A stretch of 12,949 nt of DNA, from assembly GCA_003157595.1 (NCBI GenBank), contig PMKB01000058.1, positions 1-12,949 on the forward strand. The letters are read 5' to 3'. Shown here in pieces: positions 179 to 11,648 of this stretch (within the stretch, counting starts at the first letter, position 1; every line of letters starts with the position of its first letter). This stretch comes from Solirubrobacterales bacterium (GTDB taxonomy: Bacteria > Actinomycetota > Thermoleophilia > Solirubrobacterales > Solirubrobacteraceae). Below the pieces are notes generated by a model that searched no databases, had not been told where the DNA came from, and worked only from the letters and a program-made list of their open reading frames with translations. A program made the position numbers and the translations under genes.

Positions 179-670
179 ATGGCGACTGAGGGCGCAGCGG
201 TACACGTGATCGACGTGACGGTCAACGGCGTGCCCCACTCCACCGCCGTGCCGGCCCGGCGGCTGCTCGAGCATTTCATACGCGAGACGCTCGGCCTGCG
301 CGGCACGCACATCGGCTGCGACACCGGCAACTGCGGCGCCTGCTCGGTGATCTGCGACGGCCAGCTGATCAAGAGCTGCATGATGCTCGCGGTCCAGGCC
401 GACGGCTGCGAGATCGAGACGATCGAGAGCCTCGGCGACGGCCCCGACGGACTCGACCCGATCCAGCAGGCCTTCAAAGAGCACCACGGCCTGCAGTGCG
501 GCTACTGCACGCCCGGGATCGTGCTGAACGCGAAGACGCTGCTGGCGGAGAACCCACACCCCAGCGAGGCGGAGATTCGCCGCGCGCTGAAGGGCAACAT
601 CTGCCGCTGCACAGGCTATGTGAACATCGTCCGGTCGATCGAGGCCGCCGCCGGAGCCCAAGGAGAGTGA
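179..670 (+). CDS. 2Fe-2S subunit of a molybdenum hydroxylase (CoxS/XdhC-type small subunit)
   Basis: The 163-residue protein carries two [2Fe-2S] clusters that move electrons from the Mo centre to FAD in xanthine dehydrogenase-family enzymes. The N-terminal plant-ferredoxin-type domain (about residues 8-83) has Cys47, Cys52, Cys55 and Cys67 in the pattern [12 protein letters not shown]...SC. The C-terminal four-helix domain (about 90-160) has Cys107, Cys110, Cys142 and Cys144 in QCGYCTPG and ICRCTGY. All eight ligands are present, and the length matches the family (about 155-170). The ATG is preceded by GGAGG. The gene lies 45 nt after the FAD subunit and 4 nt before the Mo subunit, so all three are probably one transcript. 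It acts in the cytoplasm as part of an (LMS)2-type complex, by family knowledge. Confidence 0.95.
660..665 (+). promoter_or_regulatory. Ribosome binding site of the Mo subunit gene
   Basis: AAGGAG inside the last codons of the 2Fe-2S gene lies 9 nt before the ATG at 675. It fixes the start and suggests coupled translation across the 4-nt junction. Confidence 0.7.
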
Positions 671-674
671 CGCG

Positions 675-3161
675 ATGAGCACCCCATCAGGCGAGACGAC
701 CTACTACCCCGAGGTCGAGCAGAGCGAACGGCTGGGCGCGTGGTCGGGCAAGAGCGTGCCGCGCAAGGAGGACAAGCGCCTGCTGAAGGGCCAGGGAGCC
801 TTCGTCGACGACCTCTGGATGCACCGCCAGGGCCACGTGCACTTCGTGCGCTCGCCCCATGCCCACGCGCGGATCGTCTCGGTCGACGTCTCGCGCTGCG
901 AGGCCGTGGCGGGCGTGTACGCGACGCTCACCGGCGAGGAGGTCGGCCTGTTGCAACAGCCGTTCTTCCAGATGGCCCCCGAGCCGGCCGGTCTGATGAA
1001 GGACTACTGCTTGGCGGTCGGCAAGGCGCGCTACATGGGCGAGCCGGTGGCCTGTGTGCTGGCCGAGTCCGCTGAGCTGGCGCGCGACGCCGCCGCGCTC
1101 GTTGAGGTGGTCTATGAGCCGCTGGCAGTCGTGGTCGACGGGATCGCCACGATCGAACCGCAGGCGCCGGTGCTGCATGAGGAGATCGGCTCGAACGTGG
1201 CCTGGCACGGGCTCTACGACTACGGCGACGTCGACTGGGCGCTCGAGCACGCCGACCACGTCGTGCGGATCGACCGCCTGCACTTCCACCGCTTCTCTTC
1301 GACGCCGCTCGAGACGACGGGCGCGCTGGTCAACTGGGACCCGGGCACGGGCGTGGTCGAGTTCCGCTCCAACAACCAGATGCCGATGTTCGCGGCGATG
1401 TTCATCGGGCCGGCGATCGGCCTGGGGGTCGACCACATGCAGTTCTCGAGCCAGGACATCGGTGGCGGCTTCGGGATCAAGATCACCAGCTACACCTACC
1501 TGACCGCGCTCGCGCTGCTCTCGCGCAAGGCCGGTCGCCCGGTGAAGTGGAGCGAGTCGCGCTGGGAGCACCTCGTGGCCTCGGCTCACGGCAACGAGCG
1601 AACCTTCCTCGACATCGAGGTGCCCGTGATGAGCGACGGCACGATCCTCGGCTTCAAGGTGCGGGCCTTCGACGACGCCGGCGCCTACCTGCGCTACGAG
1701 CCGCTCGGCGCGGTGATCTGGTCGCAGGTCGTGCCCGGCAACTACCGCTTCAAGCATGTCCGCGTCGACTACACCGAGACGTTGACGAACAAGTGTCCCG
1801 TCGGCCCCAACCGCGGCTACTCGCGCCTGCAGCATCTGTGGCTGATCGAGCGGATCGTGGATGTCGTCGCGAAGGAGCTGAACTTCGATCGCGTGGCGCT
1901 GCGCAAGCTCAACTACGTGCAACCCGAGGAGTTCCCCTACGAGACGCCGAACGGCTGCATCTACGACTCCGGCGACTACCCGGCGATGCTCGACCAGGTG
2001 CTCGAGCTGATCGACTACGAGGGCGCCCGCGCCCGCCAGCTCGCGAGCGCCGGCAGCGGCAAGCGGATCGGCATCGGGATCGGCTCGACGCTCGACTCCG
2101 GCACCAACAACTTCGGGCAATCGCGGATCATCAACTCCGCGCTTCCGTTCTCCGGCAACGGCGAGGCCGCGGTCGTGCGGCTCGACCTCTACGGCGAGGT
2201 CACGGTGACGATCGGGACCAGCCCGCAGGGACAGGGGCACGAGACGACCGCCGCGCAGGTCACAGCCGACATCCTCGGCTGCAGCCCGGACCAGGTTCAC
2301 GTCGTGGCCGGCTACAACAAGGCGGCGAACACCTACGTCGGCTTCTCGGGCACCTACGCGAGCCAGTTCGCCGTGACCGGCCTGGGCGCCGTGATGGGGG
2401 CGGCCGAGCGACTGCGTGGGGAGATCGTCAAGGTCGGGGCGTGCATGCTCGGCGCCGAGGAGTCAGACATCGAGCTCGCCGACGGATTCGTCCGCCTCGC
2501 GGCCAATCCGCAGGCGGCGATCCCCTTCATCGGCATCGCGGCCACCGTCTTCGCGAACGTGGCCGAGCTGCCCGGTGAGCTGGCCGACTCCGTGACGCTC
2601 AACTGCCGCTATGTGTACCGCCCGCCGTTCACGGTTCCCGACCACGAGACCAAGCGCGGCAAGCTGACGCTGACCTACGCCAGCCAGGTGCACGCGGCGG
2701 TTGTCGAGGTGGACGACGAGACCGGCCAGGTCACGATCCTCGACTACGCGGCGGTCGACGAGTGCGGCCGCAAGGTCAACCCCAAGATCGTCGAGGGCCA
2801 GGTGCACGGCGCCACCGCGCACGGAATCGGAGCGGCGCTGTATGAGAGCTTCGAGTACGACGCCGACGGGCAGCTGCTGAACTCGACGTTCATGGACTAC
2901 CACGCCGCCACCTCGCTCGACGTCCCCCACATTCGCACCGGCGAGATCGAGTGTCCGTCGCCGTTCACCCCCAACGGCGCGAAGGGCATGGGCGAAGGCG
3001 GCGGCGCGCCGCTGTCGACGATCGCCAGCGCGATCGAGGACGCGCTGCCGCACGGCGCCCACATCGTCTACGACACGCACAACAACGCCGAACGGGTTTA
3101 CGAGCTGCTGCGCAGCGCCGCGGCGGCCGGCCCGCGAGGTGTGGAGGTGGTCTCGAGATGA
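675..3161 (+). CDS. Molybdopterin-binding large subunit, xanthine dehydrogenase/CoxL family, non-CO active-site loop
   Basis: The 828-residue catalytic subunit would bind the Mo-molybdopterin cytosine dinucleotide cofactor and hydroxylate its substrate with water-derived oxygen. Visible landmarks are the N-terminal a/b hammerhead domain ([20 protein letters not shown], about residues 27-46), the first Mo-pterin glycine loop [10 protein letters not shown] (260-269), the second loop [13 protein letters not shown] (516-528), and the catalytic glutamate region [10 protein letters not shown] with Glu774. The substrate-side loop reads VGPNRGYSR (376-384). This is neither AYRCSFR of true CO dehydrogenases (form I) nor the AYRGAGR of most form II homologues. 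I therefore do not call it CO dehydrogenase; the substrate is probably an aldehyde, purine, N-heterocycle or similar, and is unknown. It overlaps the next gene by ATGA, so expression is coupled. No Mo-insertion chaperone gene is in the window. Confidence 0.93.
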
Positions 3162-7614: not shown

Positions 7615-7620
7615 CCCTGC

Positions 7621-8322
7621 ATGAGCGCGGATGACGAGCGGCTGCGTGTCCTGGTCGTCGACGATGAGCCCAACATCGTCGATGTGATCTCGATGGCGCT
7701 GCGGTTCGAGGGCTTCGATGTCGAGTCCGCCGCGACCGGCGCCGACGCGATCGCTGCGGTCGCCGCGCGGCCCCCGCAGCTGGTGGTGCTGGATGTGATG
7801 CTCCCCGACATCGACGGCTTCGAGGTGGCCCGGCGGCTCGCCGGCGCTCGCGCGAAGGTGCCGATCATCTTCCTGACCGCTCGCGACTCGACCGAGGACG
7901 TCGTCCATGGCCTGACGCTCGGCGGCGACGACTACGTCACCAAGCCGTTCAGCCTCGAGGAGCTCGTCGCCCGGATCCGCACCATCCTGCGCCGCTCGGG
8001 CCTATCGGAGGAGAGCAGCTCGAAGCTCGTGTTCGGCGATCTGGAACTCGACGAGGACACCCACGAGGTTGCGCGCGCGGGGCGCGAGGTCGAGCTCACC
8101 GCGACCGAGTTTCGCCTGCTGCGCTACCTGATGGCGAATCCGCGCCGCGTACTCACCCGTCCGCAGCTGCTCGACCATGTCTGGAACTACGACTTCGGCG
8201 GCGACGCCCGCGTGCTGGAGACCTACATCAGCTACCTGCGCAAGAAGATCGACGTCGGCTCACCGTCGCTGATCCACACCGTGCGCGGCGTCGGCTACGC
8301 GCTGCGGATGCCGCGGGGTTGA
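7621..8322 (+). CDS. OmpR/PhoB-type response regulator
   Basis: The 233-residue protein has a receiver domain (about 8-122) and a winged-helix DNA-binding domain (about 133-230). The receiver shows the acidic pair Asp14-Asp15, phospho-acceptor Asp58 in VVLDVMLPD, Thr86 in FLTAR, and Lys108 in TKPF. The effector domain has the OmpR-type ELTATEFRLLRYLMANPRRVLTRPQLLDHVW, followed by R.LETYISYLRKKI and TVRGVGYALR. It is the cytoplasmic transcription factor partner of the kinase that begins 7 nt downstream. The ATG at 7621 is chosen because homology starts there and a promoter-like -10 sits just before it; a longer upstream frame has no family similarity. Resemblance is to the actinobacterial MprA/TrcR/PhoP group in general; I cannot name an orthologue. 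Confidence 0.95.
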   Translation: MSADDERLRVLVVDDEPNIVDVISMALRFEGFDVESAATGADAIAAVAARPPQLVVLDVMLPDIDGFEVARRLAGARAKVPIIFLTARDSTEDVVHGLTLGGDDYVTKPFSLEELVARIRTILRRSGLSEESSSKLVFGDLELDEDTHEVARAGREVELTATEFRLLRYLMANPRRVLTRPQLLDHVWNYDFGGDARVLETYISYLRKKIDVGSPSLIHTVRGVGYALRMPRG

Positions 8323-8329
8323 GAGCGCG

Positions 8330-9832
8330 ATGTCGCTGCGTGCGCGGCTGCTGATCGGCCTGATCGCGCTGACCGCCGCGGGGCTGGTGATCGCCGGCGT
8401 CGTCACCTACGCGGCCGAGCGCTCCTACCTGGTTTCGCGCGTGGACTCGCAGCTCTCAGGCGCCACGATCAACAGCTTCGAGGACTTCCTCGACCGCCAG
8501 CTCGGCGTCGCCAAGGCCGGCGGCGGCCTGACACCGGGCGGCGGCGGCGGCGGCTTCGGCGGCGGCGGCGCAGGGCTCTTCCCGCCGCCGAGCGGCGGCG
8601 GCCCCCAGCCCGGCGGTGAGCTGGCCGGCCATGTGCTCCCGCCGGTCGGCACCTACGGCATCTACATCGCCGCGACCGGGAAGATGAAGGAGGGCGAGTT
8701 CGGGGGCGAGGGCGCTTCCCAGCCGAAGCTTCCGACGTCCATACCACTGACCACCAACCCTCGCCACCCGAAGCTGATCACCGTCGACTCGGCGGCCGGC
8801 TCGGGACTGCAGTACCGCGTGCTGCGCAAGACCAGTGACACCGGGTCGGGCACGATGACGATCGCGATCCCGCTCAACGACCTCAGCCAGACACTCACCC
8901 GGCTGCGCACCGTCGAGTTGATCGTGATCGCCGCGGTGCTGCTCGCGCTCGCCGCCTTCGCCTGGCTGCTGATCCGGATCGGCCTGCGGCCGCTGCACCG
9001 GATGGGTGCGACGGCCGGCGCGATCGCCGCCGGGGACCTTTCGCGCCGCGTCAGCCCCGCGGACTCGCGCACCGAGGTCGGCCGCCTCGGCCTCGCCCTG
9101 AACGCGATGCTCGGACAGATCGAGCAAGCGTTTGGCGAGCGCCAGGCAAGCGAGGATCGCCTGCGGCGCTTCCTCTCGGACGCCTCGCACGAGCTGCGCA
9201 CGCCGCTGACCTCGATCCGCGGCTACGCGGAGCTGTTCCGCATGGGCGCGACGGCGTCCACCGAGGACACCGAAAAGGCGATGGCGCGGATCGAGGAAGA
9301 GGCGACGCGCATGGGCATCCTCGTGGAGGACCTGCTCGCGCTTGCCCGCCTGGATGAGATGCCGCTCCCTCGCCGCGAGGCGGTCGACCTCGAGCCGCTC
9401 GCGCGCGACGCCGCCGACGACGCGCGCGCCGCCGCGCGCGAGCGTGAGGTGACGCTGACCCTCGCCGGTGAGCACATCGTCAGCGGCGACCCCTCGCAGC
9501 TTCGCCAGGTGCTCGCGAACCTGATGCGCAACGCGCTGACCCACACCCCGGCCGGCTCGCCGATCGAGCTGTCGCTGACGGGTGCGAACGGCAGCGTGCG
9601 GATCGAGGTGCGCGATCACGGCCCGGGCCTGCCGCAGGGCTCCCAGGACAGCGTGTTCGAGCGCTTCTGGCGCTCCGAGACCGGTCGCGAGCGCGGCAGG
9701 GCGGGCGCCGGCCTCGGGCTCGCGATCGTCGCGGCGATCGTGGCGGCGCACGGCGGCAAGGTCAGTGCGGACAACGCCCCCGGCGGAGGGGCCGTGTTCA
9801 CGATCGAGCTTGCGGCGCCGGCCGCGCGCTAG
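8330..9832 (+). CDS. Sensor histidine kinase with Gly/Pro-rich extracytoplasmic segment
   Basis: The 500-residue inner-membrane kinase has TM1 at about 7-27, an extracytoplasmic region 30-193, TM2 at about 194-216, and a HAMP domain at about 216-270. The dimerisation domain carries phospho-acceptor His287 in FLSDASHELRTPLTSIRGY. The ATPase domain has N-box Asn401 in ANLMRNALTHT, the G1 motif DHGPGLP, the F box VFERFWRSE, and the G2 motif GAGLGLAIVAAI. All catalytic motifs are intact. The extracytoplasmic region is odd: residues 64-100 are nearly all Gly and Pro, a flexible linker between two small halves, and no known sensor fold is evident. It starts 7 nt after the response regulator stop and is surely its partner. 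A strong hairpin follows about 38 nt after its stop. Confidence 0.95.
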   Translation: MSLRARLLIGLIALTAAGLVIAGVVTYAAERSYLVSRVDSQLSGATINSFEDFLDRQLGVAKAGGGLTPGGGGGGFGGGGAGLFPPPSGGGPQPGGELAGHVLPPVGTYGIYIAATGKMKEGEFGGEGASQPKLPTSIPLTTNPRHPKLITVDSAAGSGLQYRVLRKTSDTGSGTMTIAIPLNDLSQTLTRLRTVELIVIAAVLLALAAFAWLLIRIGLRPLHRMGATAGAIAAGDLSRRVSPADSRTEVGRLGLALNAMLGQIEQAFGERQASEDRLRRFLSDASHELRTPLTSIRGYAELFRMGATASTEDTEKAMARIEEEATRMGILVEDLLALARLDEMPLPRREAVDLEPLARDAADDARAAAREREVTLTLAGEHIVSGDPSQLRQVLANLMRNALTHTPAGSPIELSLTGANGSVRIEVRDHGPGLPQGSQDSVFERFWRSETGRERGRAGAGLGLAIVAAIVAAHGGKVSADNAPGGGAVFTIELAAPAAR

Positions 9833-9899: not shown

Positions 9900-11150
9900 T
9901 CAGGATTGGGCTGGGATCACGGCGGGCGCGCCGAACGCCACCAGGCATTCCGGCAACACGACCGAGCGGTCCTCGCGCTGGTGGTTCTCGAGCAGCGCGA
10001 TCATCGTGCGGCCGGTCGCGACCGCGGTGCCGTTGAGCGTGGCGGCGGTGACCGGACGCCCGCCGGCGGGTCGCACGCGGATCTCCAGGCGGCGCGCCTG
10101 GAAGTCGGTCGTGTTCGAGCAGGAGGTCAGCTCGCGGTAACGCTGCTGGCCGGGAAGCCAGGCCTCGCAGTCGTACTTCTTGGCGGCCGAGGAGCCCAGG
10201 TCGCCGACCGCGATGTTGACCACGCGGTAGGGGATCTCCAGCTCGCGCAGCAGCGACTCCTCGATCGCGAGGATCCGCTCGTGCTCCGCCGTCGCCTCCT
10301 CGGCGGTCGTGAAGACGAACATCTCAACCTTGTCGAACTGGTGCACGCGGAAGATGCCGCGAGTGTCCTTGCCGGCCGCTCCGGCCTCGCGGCGAAAGCA
10401 CGATGAGAAGCCGGCGTAGCGGCGCGGCAGCGTGGCGGCGTCGAGGATCTCGCCGGCATGCAGCGAGGCGAGCGCGACCTCGGAGGTGCCGACGAGGAAC
10501 AGCTCGTCGTCGGGCAGGCTGTAGATCTGCTGCTCGGTGTCGGGCAGGAAACCGGTGCCGTAGAGCGCCTGCTCGCGGACCAGCACGGGGGGAAGCACCG
10601 GCTCGAAGCCCTGGGCGCGCAGCCGTTCGAGCGCCCAGCGCACGAGCGCCAGCTCGAGCATCACCAGATCCCCCTTGAGATAGGCGAAGCGCGAGCCCGA
10701 CAGCCGCGCGCCGGCCTCCATGTCGATCAGGCCGCCGGCGAGCTCGAGGTGGTCGGCCACCGGGCCGGGGCGGCACTCGCCGACCGAGCGGATCACCGTG
10801 TCGGCGTCGGCCGCGTCCGCCGCCGGCAGATTCGGCAGCACGATCATGGCCGCGTGCAGCTGCGCCTGGGTGGCTGCAAGCTCCGCCTGAAGCCGTCTCT
10901 CGCGCTCACCCACCTCGCGCATCTGGGCGATCGCCGCGGTCGTGTCGGCGCCGTCGCGCTTGGCCTGCGCGATCTCCTCGGAGGCCTGGTTCTTCGCGGC
11001 GCGCAGGTCTTCCAGCTCCGGCAGCAGGCTGCGCCGGCGAGCATCGAGCTCGAGCACCGCCTCGACGCCGGCGGCGACCCCCCCACCCCGCCGCTCGAGC
11101 GCCGCGCGGACGGCGTCGGGGTCCTCGCGGATCAGCCTGAGGTCGAGAAT
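9900..11150 (-). CDS. serS: Seryl-tRNA synthetase, apparently starting at ATT
   Basis: This class II enzyme charges tRNA-Ser with serine in the cytoplasm. Read from the ATT at 11148-11150 it has 416 residues, the normal bacterial length. The N-terminal coiled-coil arm begins (ATT)LDLRLIREDPDAVRAAL, which aligns exactly with the usual MLDL..IRE.P..V. Family motifs follow: TSE (222-224), motif 2 FRREAGAAGKDTRGIFRVHQF (from Phe252), and motif 3 NGTAVATGR with Arg381. GGAGG (11156-11160) lies 5 nt before the ATT. A TAG is in frame at 11160-11162, so the protein cannot begin further upstream. The first canonical start is GTG at 11057, which would delete 31 residues of the arm needed for tRNA binding. 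Either ATT is the true start or an ATG was changed by mutation or read error. It follows the cytochrome gene by 59 nt on the same strand. Confidence 0.93.
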   Translation of the reverse strand: MLDLRLIREDPDAVRAALERRGGGVAAGVEAVLELDARRRSLLPELEDLRAAKNQASEEIAQAKRDGADTTAAIAQMREVGERERRLQAELAATQAQLHAAMIVLPNLPAADAADADTVIRSVGECRPGPVADHLELAGGLIDMEAGARLSGSRFAYLKGDLVMLELALVRWALERLRAQGFEPVLPPVLVREQALYGTGFLPDTEQQIYSLPDDELFLVGTSEVALASLHAGEILDAATLPRRYAGFSSCFRREAGAAGKDTRGIFRVHQFDKVEMFVFTTAEEATAEHERILAIEESLLRELEIPYRVVNIAVGDLGSSAAKKYDCEAWLPGQQRYRELTSCSNTTDFQARRLEIRVRPAGGRPVTAATLNGTAVATGRTMIALLENHQREDRSVVLPECLVAFGAPAVIPAQS

Positions 11151-11155
11151 CGCGG

Positions 11156-11160
11156 CCTCC
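11156..11160 (-). promoter_or_regulatory. Ribosome binding site that marks the ATT start of serS
   Basis: On the minus strand GGAGG (within TTAGGAGG) is followed by 5 nt and then ATT at 11150. It is one of the best Shine-Dalgarno matches in the window and supports initiation at this ATT rather than at the GTG 93 nt downstream, which has no comparable site. Confidence 0.75.
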
Positions 11161-11209
11161 TAACGATCCGCCGGCGCCAGCGATGCGATTGGGGTGCTGG
11201 GATGGCTTC

Positions 11210-11632
11210 CTAACCCGAACAGGAGTTGCTCGACCCGATCGTCGGCGTGTGCGGCGCTTGCAGGCCGGCGTACTTCGCCAAGAAGTGCGCGATCGCCGTC
11301 GCATCCGAGCCGACGACGATGTTCTGGGGCATGATCTGACCCGAGAATCCGCCGTTCTGGATCGCGTACAGCACGCAGGCGTAACCCTCCTTGCGGAAGT
11401 TGAAGTTCGGCCCGTTGGTCCGCACGCGGCCCTGGACCGAGGTCGCCGAGCCCTCCGCGCCGACCAGCGACAGCGTGTGGCAGCCCGAGCAGTGCGTGGC
11501 GAACAGCTCCGCCCCGGTCCGGTAAGCGCTGCTCTTGGACAGCTGGATGCCCTGCGAGCTGCAGGCGCTGATTGCGAGCGCCACGGCAGCGCCGACCGCG
11601 ACGGTCCTTGCGATCTGTGCGGGTGAAGCCAT
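11210..11632 (-). CDS. Lipoprotein c-type cytochrome
   Basis: From the ATG at 11632 the protein has 140 residues. A short n-region and hydrophobic stretch (IARTVAVGAAVALAISAC) end in a lipobox-like ISAC with Cys24, so it is probably lipid-anchored outside the membrane. The single haem site is CSGCH (48-52), and Met101 in SGQIMPQN is the likely distal ligand. It is a small class I cytochrome domain of the kind that passes electrons between quinol oxidising complexes and an oxidase. An ATG 15 nt upstream (11647) is in frame, but a TATGAT box overlaps it, so I prefer 11632. Two further Cys (Cys86, and Cys138 near the C-terminus in SSNSCSG) might form a disulfide. Neighbours on the same strand are a membrane protein upstream and serS downstream; complex I genes lie further upstream on the other strand. 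Confidence 0.85.
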   Translation of the reverse strand: MASPAQIARTVAVGAAVALAISACSSQGIQLSKSSAYRTGAELFATHCSGCHTLSLVGAEGSATSVQGRVRTNGPNFNFRKEGYACVLYAIQNGGFSGQIMPQNIVVGSDATAIAHFLAKYAGLQAPHTPTIGSSNSCSG

Positions 11633-11642
11633 GCGGGCGCAG

Positions 11643-11648
11643 ATCATA
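11643..11648 (-). promoter_or_regulatory. Candidate -10 element of the cytochrome gene
   Basis: TATGAT on the minus strand ends 10 nt before the ATG at 11632, predicting a leader of only a few nucleotides. No Shine-Dalgarno sequence precedes either possible ATG. The -35 region is not recognisable. Confidence 0.4.

Follow-up and report, generated by a model that had tools for sequence, protein, structure and literature searches.

A probable AUU start codon for the seryl-tRNA synthetase gene of a Solirubrobacterales bacterium

Where translation of serS begins

Annotation programs expect a gene to start at ATG, GTG, or TTG. Where, then, does translation begin in a conserved gene whose reading frame opens without any of these codons? 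The gene is serS, for seryl-tRNA synthetase (SerRS), and it lies on the minus strand of a 12,949-nucleotide stretch of DNA (the window) from a Solirubrobacterales bacterium. Its frame has 419 codons from stop to stop. Read on the minus strand, it runs TAG (11162-11160), GAG GCC GCG, ATT (11150-11148), CTC GAC CTC, so the in-frame TAG at 11160..11162 lies four codons 5' of the ATT at 11148..11150. The original prediction was that serS starts at this ATT behind a strong Shine-Dalgarno sequence, and we found this to be well supported by the sequence upstream, by the boundary of coding conservation, and by the codons of congeners. Specifically, AGGAGG (11156..11161, minus strand) is separated from the ATT by the 5-nt spacer CCGCG, and its anti-Shine-Dalgarno duplex is at -10.2 kcal/mol.

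From the ATT to the stop codon (9900..11150, minus strand), serS would encode 416 amino acids. The protein scores above the cut-off for TIGR00414 (419 bits, cut-off 301.65), with residues 2-406 aligning to positions 2-417 of the 418 in the profile. This match begins at residue 2; the ATT had been claimed to lie where the family has its first methionine. The alignment of the window protein with solved bacterial SerRS structures, including 2dq3 and 1ser, likewise begins at residue 2. This is the single serS match in the assembly. Other genes in the window include, by eye, small (2Fe-2S) and large subunits that resemble the xanthine/CO dehydrogenase family (179-3161), and a response regulator and a histidine kinase (7620-9832) that are convergent with serS.

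If translation began instead at the first canonical codon in the serS frame, then the first 31 codons would be a leader. We re-read the frame and agree that this codon is the GTG at 11055..11057 (minus strand), which lies 31 codons in. The number of residues that would be lost had also been counted correctly, but they were described as belonging to the coiled-coil arm; in the SerRS structure they are the N-terminal helix and the first part of the arm. Solved SerRS proteins match this segment beginning at residue 2. Across four congeners, codons 2-22 of serS differ by 0.11, 0.10, and 0.41 at positions 1, 2, and 3, which is a coding pattern and indicates conservation as protein, while the 20 codons 5' of the start differ by 0.61, 0.67, and 0.70. 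This contrast across the ATT argues that coding begins there. Furthermore, one congener (G002) has no canonical in-frame codon until 76 codons downstream, which excludes a later start as a general solution. The conserved codons and the missing canonical codon in G002 rule out the GTG for practical purposes, and we give it almost no credence. From these comparisons, serS in this genome probably starts at the non-canonical AUU.

Could the ATT be an error for ATG or GTG? The window comes from a draft assembly (358 contigs, 73% complete) in which the initiator tRNA gene, elsewhere, is interrupted by NN. However, the same serS codon is non-canonical in all three congeners (GTT, GTT, and GTA), so a base error is very unlikely and we rejected it. 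Judging from the aligned genomes, the odd start is a real and recurring departure from the usual rule and not a sequencing slip.

serS start codons in relatives

Relatives with ATG at this position would have counted against the prediction. Within the genus we found none: the aligned codon is ATT in the window, GTT in G001, GTT in G002, and GTA in G003, so four of four are non-canonical. Outside the genus, the loci from this family mostly have ATG or GTG (117 of 126). More broadly, we found serS in 138 of 146 genomes from the family and read the start in 130 loci from 128 genomes; for the other 10 genomes, either the start lay outside the match or we did not obtain the piece that bears it. The codons in these 130 loci were ATG (59), GTG (58), GTT (8), GTC (2), ATT (1), GTA (1), and CTG (1), with no TTG. 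The 13 non-canonical loci all have T as the second base. They are from the window's genus (g1, 4 of 4 loci), g2 (2 of 2), g17 (6 of 24), and g18 (1 of 21). Two genomes from different genera (G129 and G063, loci L143 and L145) share a serS start region, which might reflect contamination of an assembly.

Across the order, 213 of 232 genomes had a serS match, 75 of them outside the family. We read 20 of these 75, chosen from the best matches (18 from family f4 and 2 from family f2). Among these best-match loci there were 8 GTG, 5 TTG, 3 ATG, 3 GTT, and 1 GTA, so 4 of 20 were non-canonical (GTT in G210, G211, and G212; GTA in G226). The three GTT loci (L385, L376, and L383) are all of the species that we read from one genus of another family, and two of them lie behind GGAGG. 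In a further set of 80 serS loci from named genomes, which partly overlaps the other set, 76 were canonical. The exceptions were L007 (CTG), L011 (GTC), L017 (CTG), and L038 (CTG); L007 is apparently the same contig as that of G104, and the start of L017 was extrapolated from residue 9.

To place these changes, we used a tree of the N-terminal part of SerRS with 148 of 150 rows, including 15 non-canonical ones, and 104 columns; two short non-canonical rows (G005 and G074) were left out. On this weakly resolved tree, parsimony requires 10 or more switches between canonical and non-canonical starts, of which only 3 are forced by branches with good support. All four g1 members group together. Across the loci that we aligned, serS is hit by non-canonical starts in several lineages of one order. 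A SerRS search of plasmid records gave 96 records, all with under 60% identity, and we set these aside. In the open-access literature that we searched, we came across no report of serS with a non-canonical start, nor of any gene in Thermoleophilia with one.

According to PMC5472188, experiments have characterized very few of the natural genes that start non-canonically. An essential synthetase that is non-canonical in several lineages could provide a natural test of start-codon stringency, Shine-Dalgarno strength, and IF3 together.

Shine-Dalgarno initiation, the upstream gene, and IF3

For the window, we favor initiation at the AUU that is led by the Shine-Dalgarno sequence, behind a cytochrome c-like gene, which would be a known type of initiation. 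The strong AGGAGG, 5 nt away, would hold the ribosome at the AUU, so that the initiator fMet-tRNA enters there. In reporter mRNAs of Mycobacterium smegmatis with leaders and Shine-Dalgarno sequences, ATT was accepted and made up 9.8% of the reads at its position (PMC4633059). This is the same Shine-Dalgarno-dependent initiation at ATT that we propose for serS, but those reporters came from a selection of artificial constructs, while serS is a natural gene. Across the family, the mean Shine-Dalgarno duplex is stronger for non-canonical serS (-7.9, n = 13) than for canonical serS (-5.1, n = 117; one-sided Mann-Whitney p = 0.001, not corrected for kinship). The duplexes in G001 and G002 are weak (-3.6 and -3.9), so a strong Shine-Dalgarno sequence does not account for the starts of all four species.

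The serS mRNA would also carry the cytochrome c-like gene, which is upstream on the same strand (11210..11647, minus strand). This gene has a CSGCHT haem motif (by eye) and a weak match to NF045774 from NCBIfam (1.5e-07, 31.3 bits, below the 118-bit cut-off). Its stop is 62 nt before the ATT in the window, 12 nt before the serS start in G002, 12 nt in G003, and 19 nt in G001. Our automatic test for upstream stops missed the one in G003, where we relied on inspecting the alignment by eye. In G002 and G003 (the latter again by eye), the TAG homologous to 11160..11162 is the stop of the cytochrome c gene, which is not so in the window. These short distances would fit termination and reinitiation: if ribosomes that finish the cytochrome c-like gene reinitiate at serS, then the codon would matter less. 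Six of the 13 non-canonical loci have an upstream stop within 25 nt (by the automatic test, which missed G003). However, the distance in the window is 62 nt, and many canonical serS loci are equally close to an upstream stop (35 of 117). We consider reinitiation quite unlikely as the explanation.

One of the closest precedents for initiation led by a Shine-Dalgarno sequence is sigR of Streptomyces. It lies behind AGGAGGTG, starts with GTC (with GTT in 2 of the 34 species), and is subject to repression by IF3 (PMC5472188). Both sigR and serS have a non-canonical start of the form NTN, a strong Shine-Dalgarno sequence (AGGAGGTG in sigR), and a codon that varies among species, and both are from Actinobacteria. 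Unlike serS, sigR encodes a sigma factor and not an aminoacyl-tRNA synthetase, and it is for sigR that repression by IF3 was shown (PMC5472188). Given this precedent, it is plausible that serS is sensitive to IF3; the original prediction proposed a coupling of serylation capacity to IF3 levels or start-codon stringency, and any such control is something that we infer by analogy. Less firmly still, the AUU start might be inefficient and sensitive to IF3 as in sigR, which would keep the synthesis of SerRS low or tuned.

Another precedent is infC, which starts with AUU in Escherichia coli and AUC in Streptomyces (as cited in PMC5472188). Like serS, the infC of E. coli is a gene for translation with an AUU start. 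In contrast to serS, infC autoregulates via its product IF3, and SerRS has no such link; furthermore, infC in the window's genus has GTG at the aligned start. More broadly, the aligned start of infC was GTG in 20 and ATG in 1 of the 21 loci that we read, and one further locus was cut off. Because these starts look canonical, an IF3 loop of the E. coli type is not evident. In G001, infC (L231) is broken by NN in the assembly and its frame is shifted. We also considered a degenerate IF3, but the alignment shows a conserved protein.

Similarly, we rejected a changed initiator tRNA, as a search for the anticodon pattern and ARAGORN both look normal. The initiator-like pattern for the anticodon stem was found at 11 sites in 10 of 12 genomes, with CAT at 10 sites and TAC at 1 (in G001). 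Of 6 sites that we gave to ARAGORN, 5 were identified as tRNA-Met (cat), and there was no tRNA at the TAC site. The interrupted initiator tRNA gene of the window's genome, mentioned above, is at L373.

Other genes of the genus and the leaderless reading

Are other genes in this genus affected? We compared orthologs across 666 kb from G001, G002, G003, and the window, along with three short loci from the window's genome (G000). This gave 255 pairs from 335 genes, with 66 pairs flagged. The flagged pairs were judged on protein alignments, and we read the DNA for 5 + 14 gene ends and for serS in the window's genus. The scan suggests 10 non-canonical gene copies: 4 of serS, 2 of SRAP, 2 of a DsbA-like gene, 1 of a thiolase-like gene, and 1 of an unnamed gene. 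The thiolase-like gene has ATT in G002 versus GTG in G001, and the unnamed gene has ATC in G003 versus GTG in G001; both of these rely on motifs read by eye, as do the names DsbA-like and thiolase-like. A search of NCBIfam with the DsbA-like protein gave no match. The start of one glycosyltransferase-like gene from G001 was ambiguous even from the DNA. The same scan of a control genus (g5) gave 54 pairs from 91 genes, with 12 flagged pairs, and no non-canonical start among the 91 genes on protein alignments alone; the two scans differ in size. The first five flagged pairs from g5 looked like wrong frames.

SRAP is the clearest other case in the genus. The protein has its catalytic cysteine at position 2, and because of this Cys2 the start of the gene is fixed. 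We found SRAP in 124 of 146 genomes and examined 53 loci, of which 52 were readable: 26 ATG, 22 GTG, 1 TTG, and 3 ATC. The three ATC starts are in G000, G001, and G002, while G003 has ATG. At the three ATC loci (contig C231 of G000, L326; L235 15757 in G001; L239 in G002), the sequence is ATC TGC GG, with TAGCCT 6-7 nt before.

We located the DsbA-like gene in 46 of 61 genomes and fetched 30 loci, of which 27 were readable. Between the upstream stop and the start site, G001 (ATC) and G003 (CTG) lack any canonical codon. In the other 25 loci, including G000, an ATG or GTG lies no more than 5 codons from the start site, and in 9 it is exactly there. At L247 12624 and L252, the ATC (G001) or CTG (G003) lies 6 nt after TAGCCT; G000 has ATG.

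These spacings bring up another reading of serS: a leaderless mRNA, with TAGGAG (11157..11162, minus strand) as the -10 box and transcription from the A of the ATT. TAGGAG is a weak -10-like hexamer 6 nt before the ATT. Across our stretches from g1, frame openings with ATG or GTG peak at 6-9 nt past TANNNT (51 at these 4 gaps and 21 at the other 21 gaps); G003 has TAGGCT, 6 nt, and GTA at serS; and there are the TAGCCT motifs at SRAP and the DsbA-like gene. However, no such peak appears in g1 for other RTN codons (8 within the 4 gaps, 53 across the remaining 21), TAGGAG has no T at its last position, and a strong Shine-Dalgarno sequence would be superfluous on a leaderless mRNA. Also, TAGGAG and its 6-nt gap overlap the Shine-Dalgarno sequence and the TAG that ends the upstream gene in congeners. 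Since the TAG at -12, -12, and -19 is the stop of that gene in G002, G003 (by eye), and G001, the resemblance may be chance, and our reading of the window does not rest on this hexamer. Finally, leaderless mRNAs of mycobacteria accept only ATG or GTG (PMC4633059). A leaderless serS is unlikely, and Shine-Dalgarno-led initiation remains the reading that we favor for the window.

The control genus g5 has a similar peak for ATG and GTG (25 at the 4 gaps and 12 at the other 21; other RTN, 7 and 15). The TANNNT scan thus supports candidate leaderless genes with ATG or GTG in both g1 and g5. It gives no general support, in either genus, for leaderless starts other than RTG. The leaderless reading for such starts would rest on SRAP and the DsbA-like gene. 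The gene next to the DsbA-like gene (in both species) and to SRAP in G003 is divergent, so the TAG before these genes is not the stop of that neighbor. Our test found no upstream gene for SRAP in G000, G001, and G002. If ATC is used on these mRNAs, this would go against the ATG/GTG-only rule of mycobacteria (PMC4633059). SRAP, with its start fixed by Cys2, would be a well-defined marker for studying start-codon stringency on mRNAs that may be leaderless.

Wholesale relaxation of start codons can be rejected. The start of glmS is also fixed by a Cys2, and we found it to be canonical in 19 of 19 full-length loci from 15 genomes, so start codons are not disregarded across the board in these genomes. 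Among the ribosomal protein genes that we found by patterns in 24 loci, rpsS (10 of 10) and rpsC (9 of 9) were canonical; the patterns for rpsL, rplB, and rplN matched nothing in these loci, and the rpsG pattern gave five false matches in wrong frames.

Drift is another explanation: this clade might tolerate changes to the third base of the start codon, with no regulatory meaning. The serS codon shifts among ATT, GTT, and GTA within one genus, and the genus seems to have non-canonical starts in several further genes; against this, glmS, rpsS, and rpsC are canonical in all the loci that we read, and serS is affected in several lineages. Drift is a real contender, although we lean somewhat against it, and it is compatible with our best explanation. 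More tentatively, the genus may have relaxed the third base on chosen genes, including genes with leaderless mRNAs (the TAGCCT loci of SRAP in three species and of the DsbA-like gene in G001 and, with CTG, in G003), with serS as the most conserved member.

Two more frames, without orthologs in the stretches that we compared, seem to open at ATC: L244 5837, 5 nt past TAAGCT, and L314 7027 (G003), 6 nt past TACCCT. The first has an N-terminus that resembles a signal peptide and has no canonical codon for 75 codons, and the second has TTG at codon 17.
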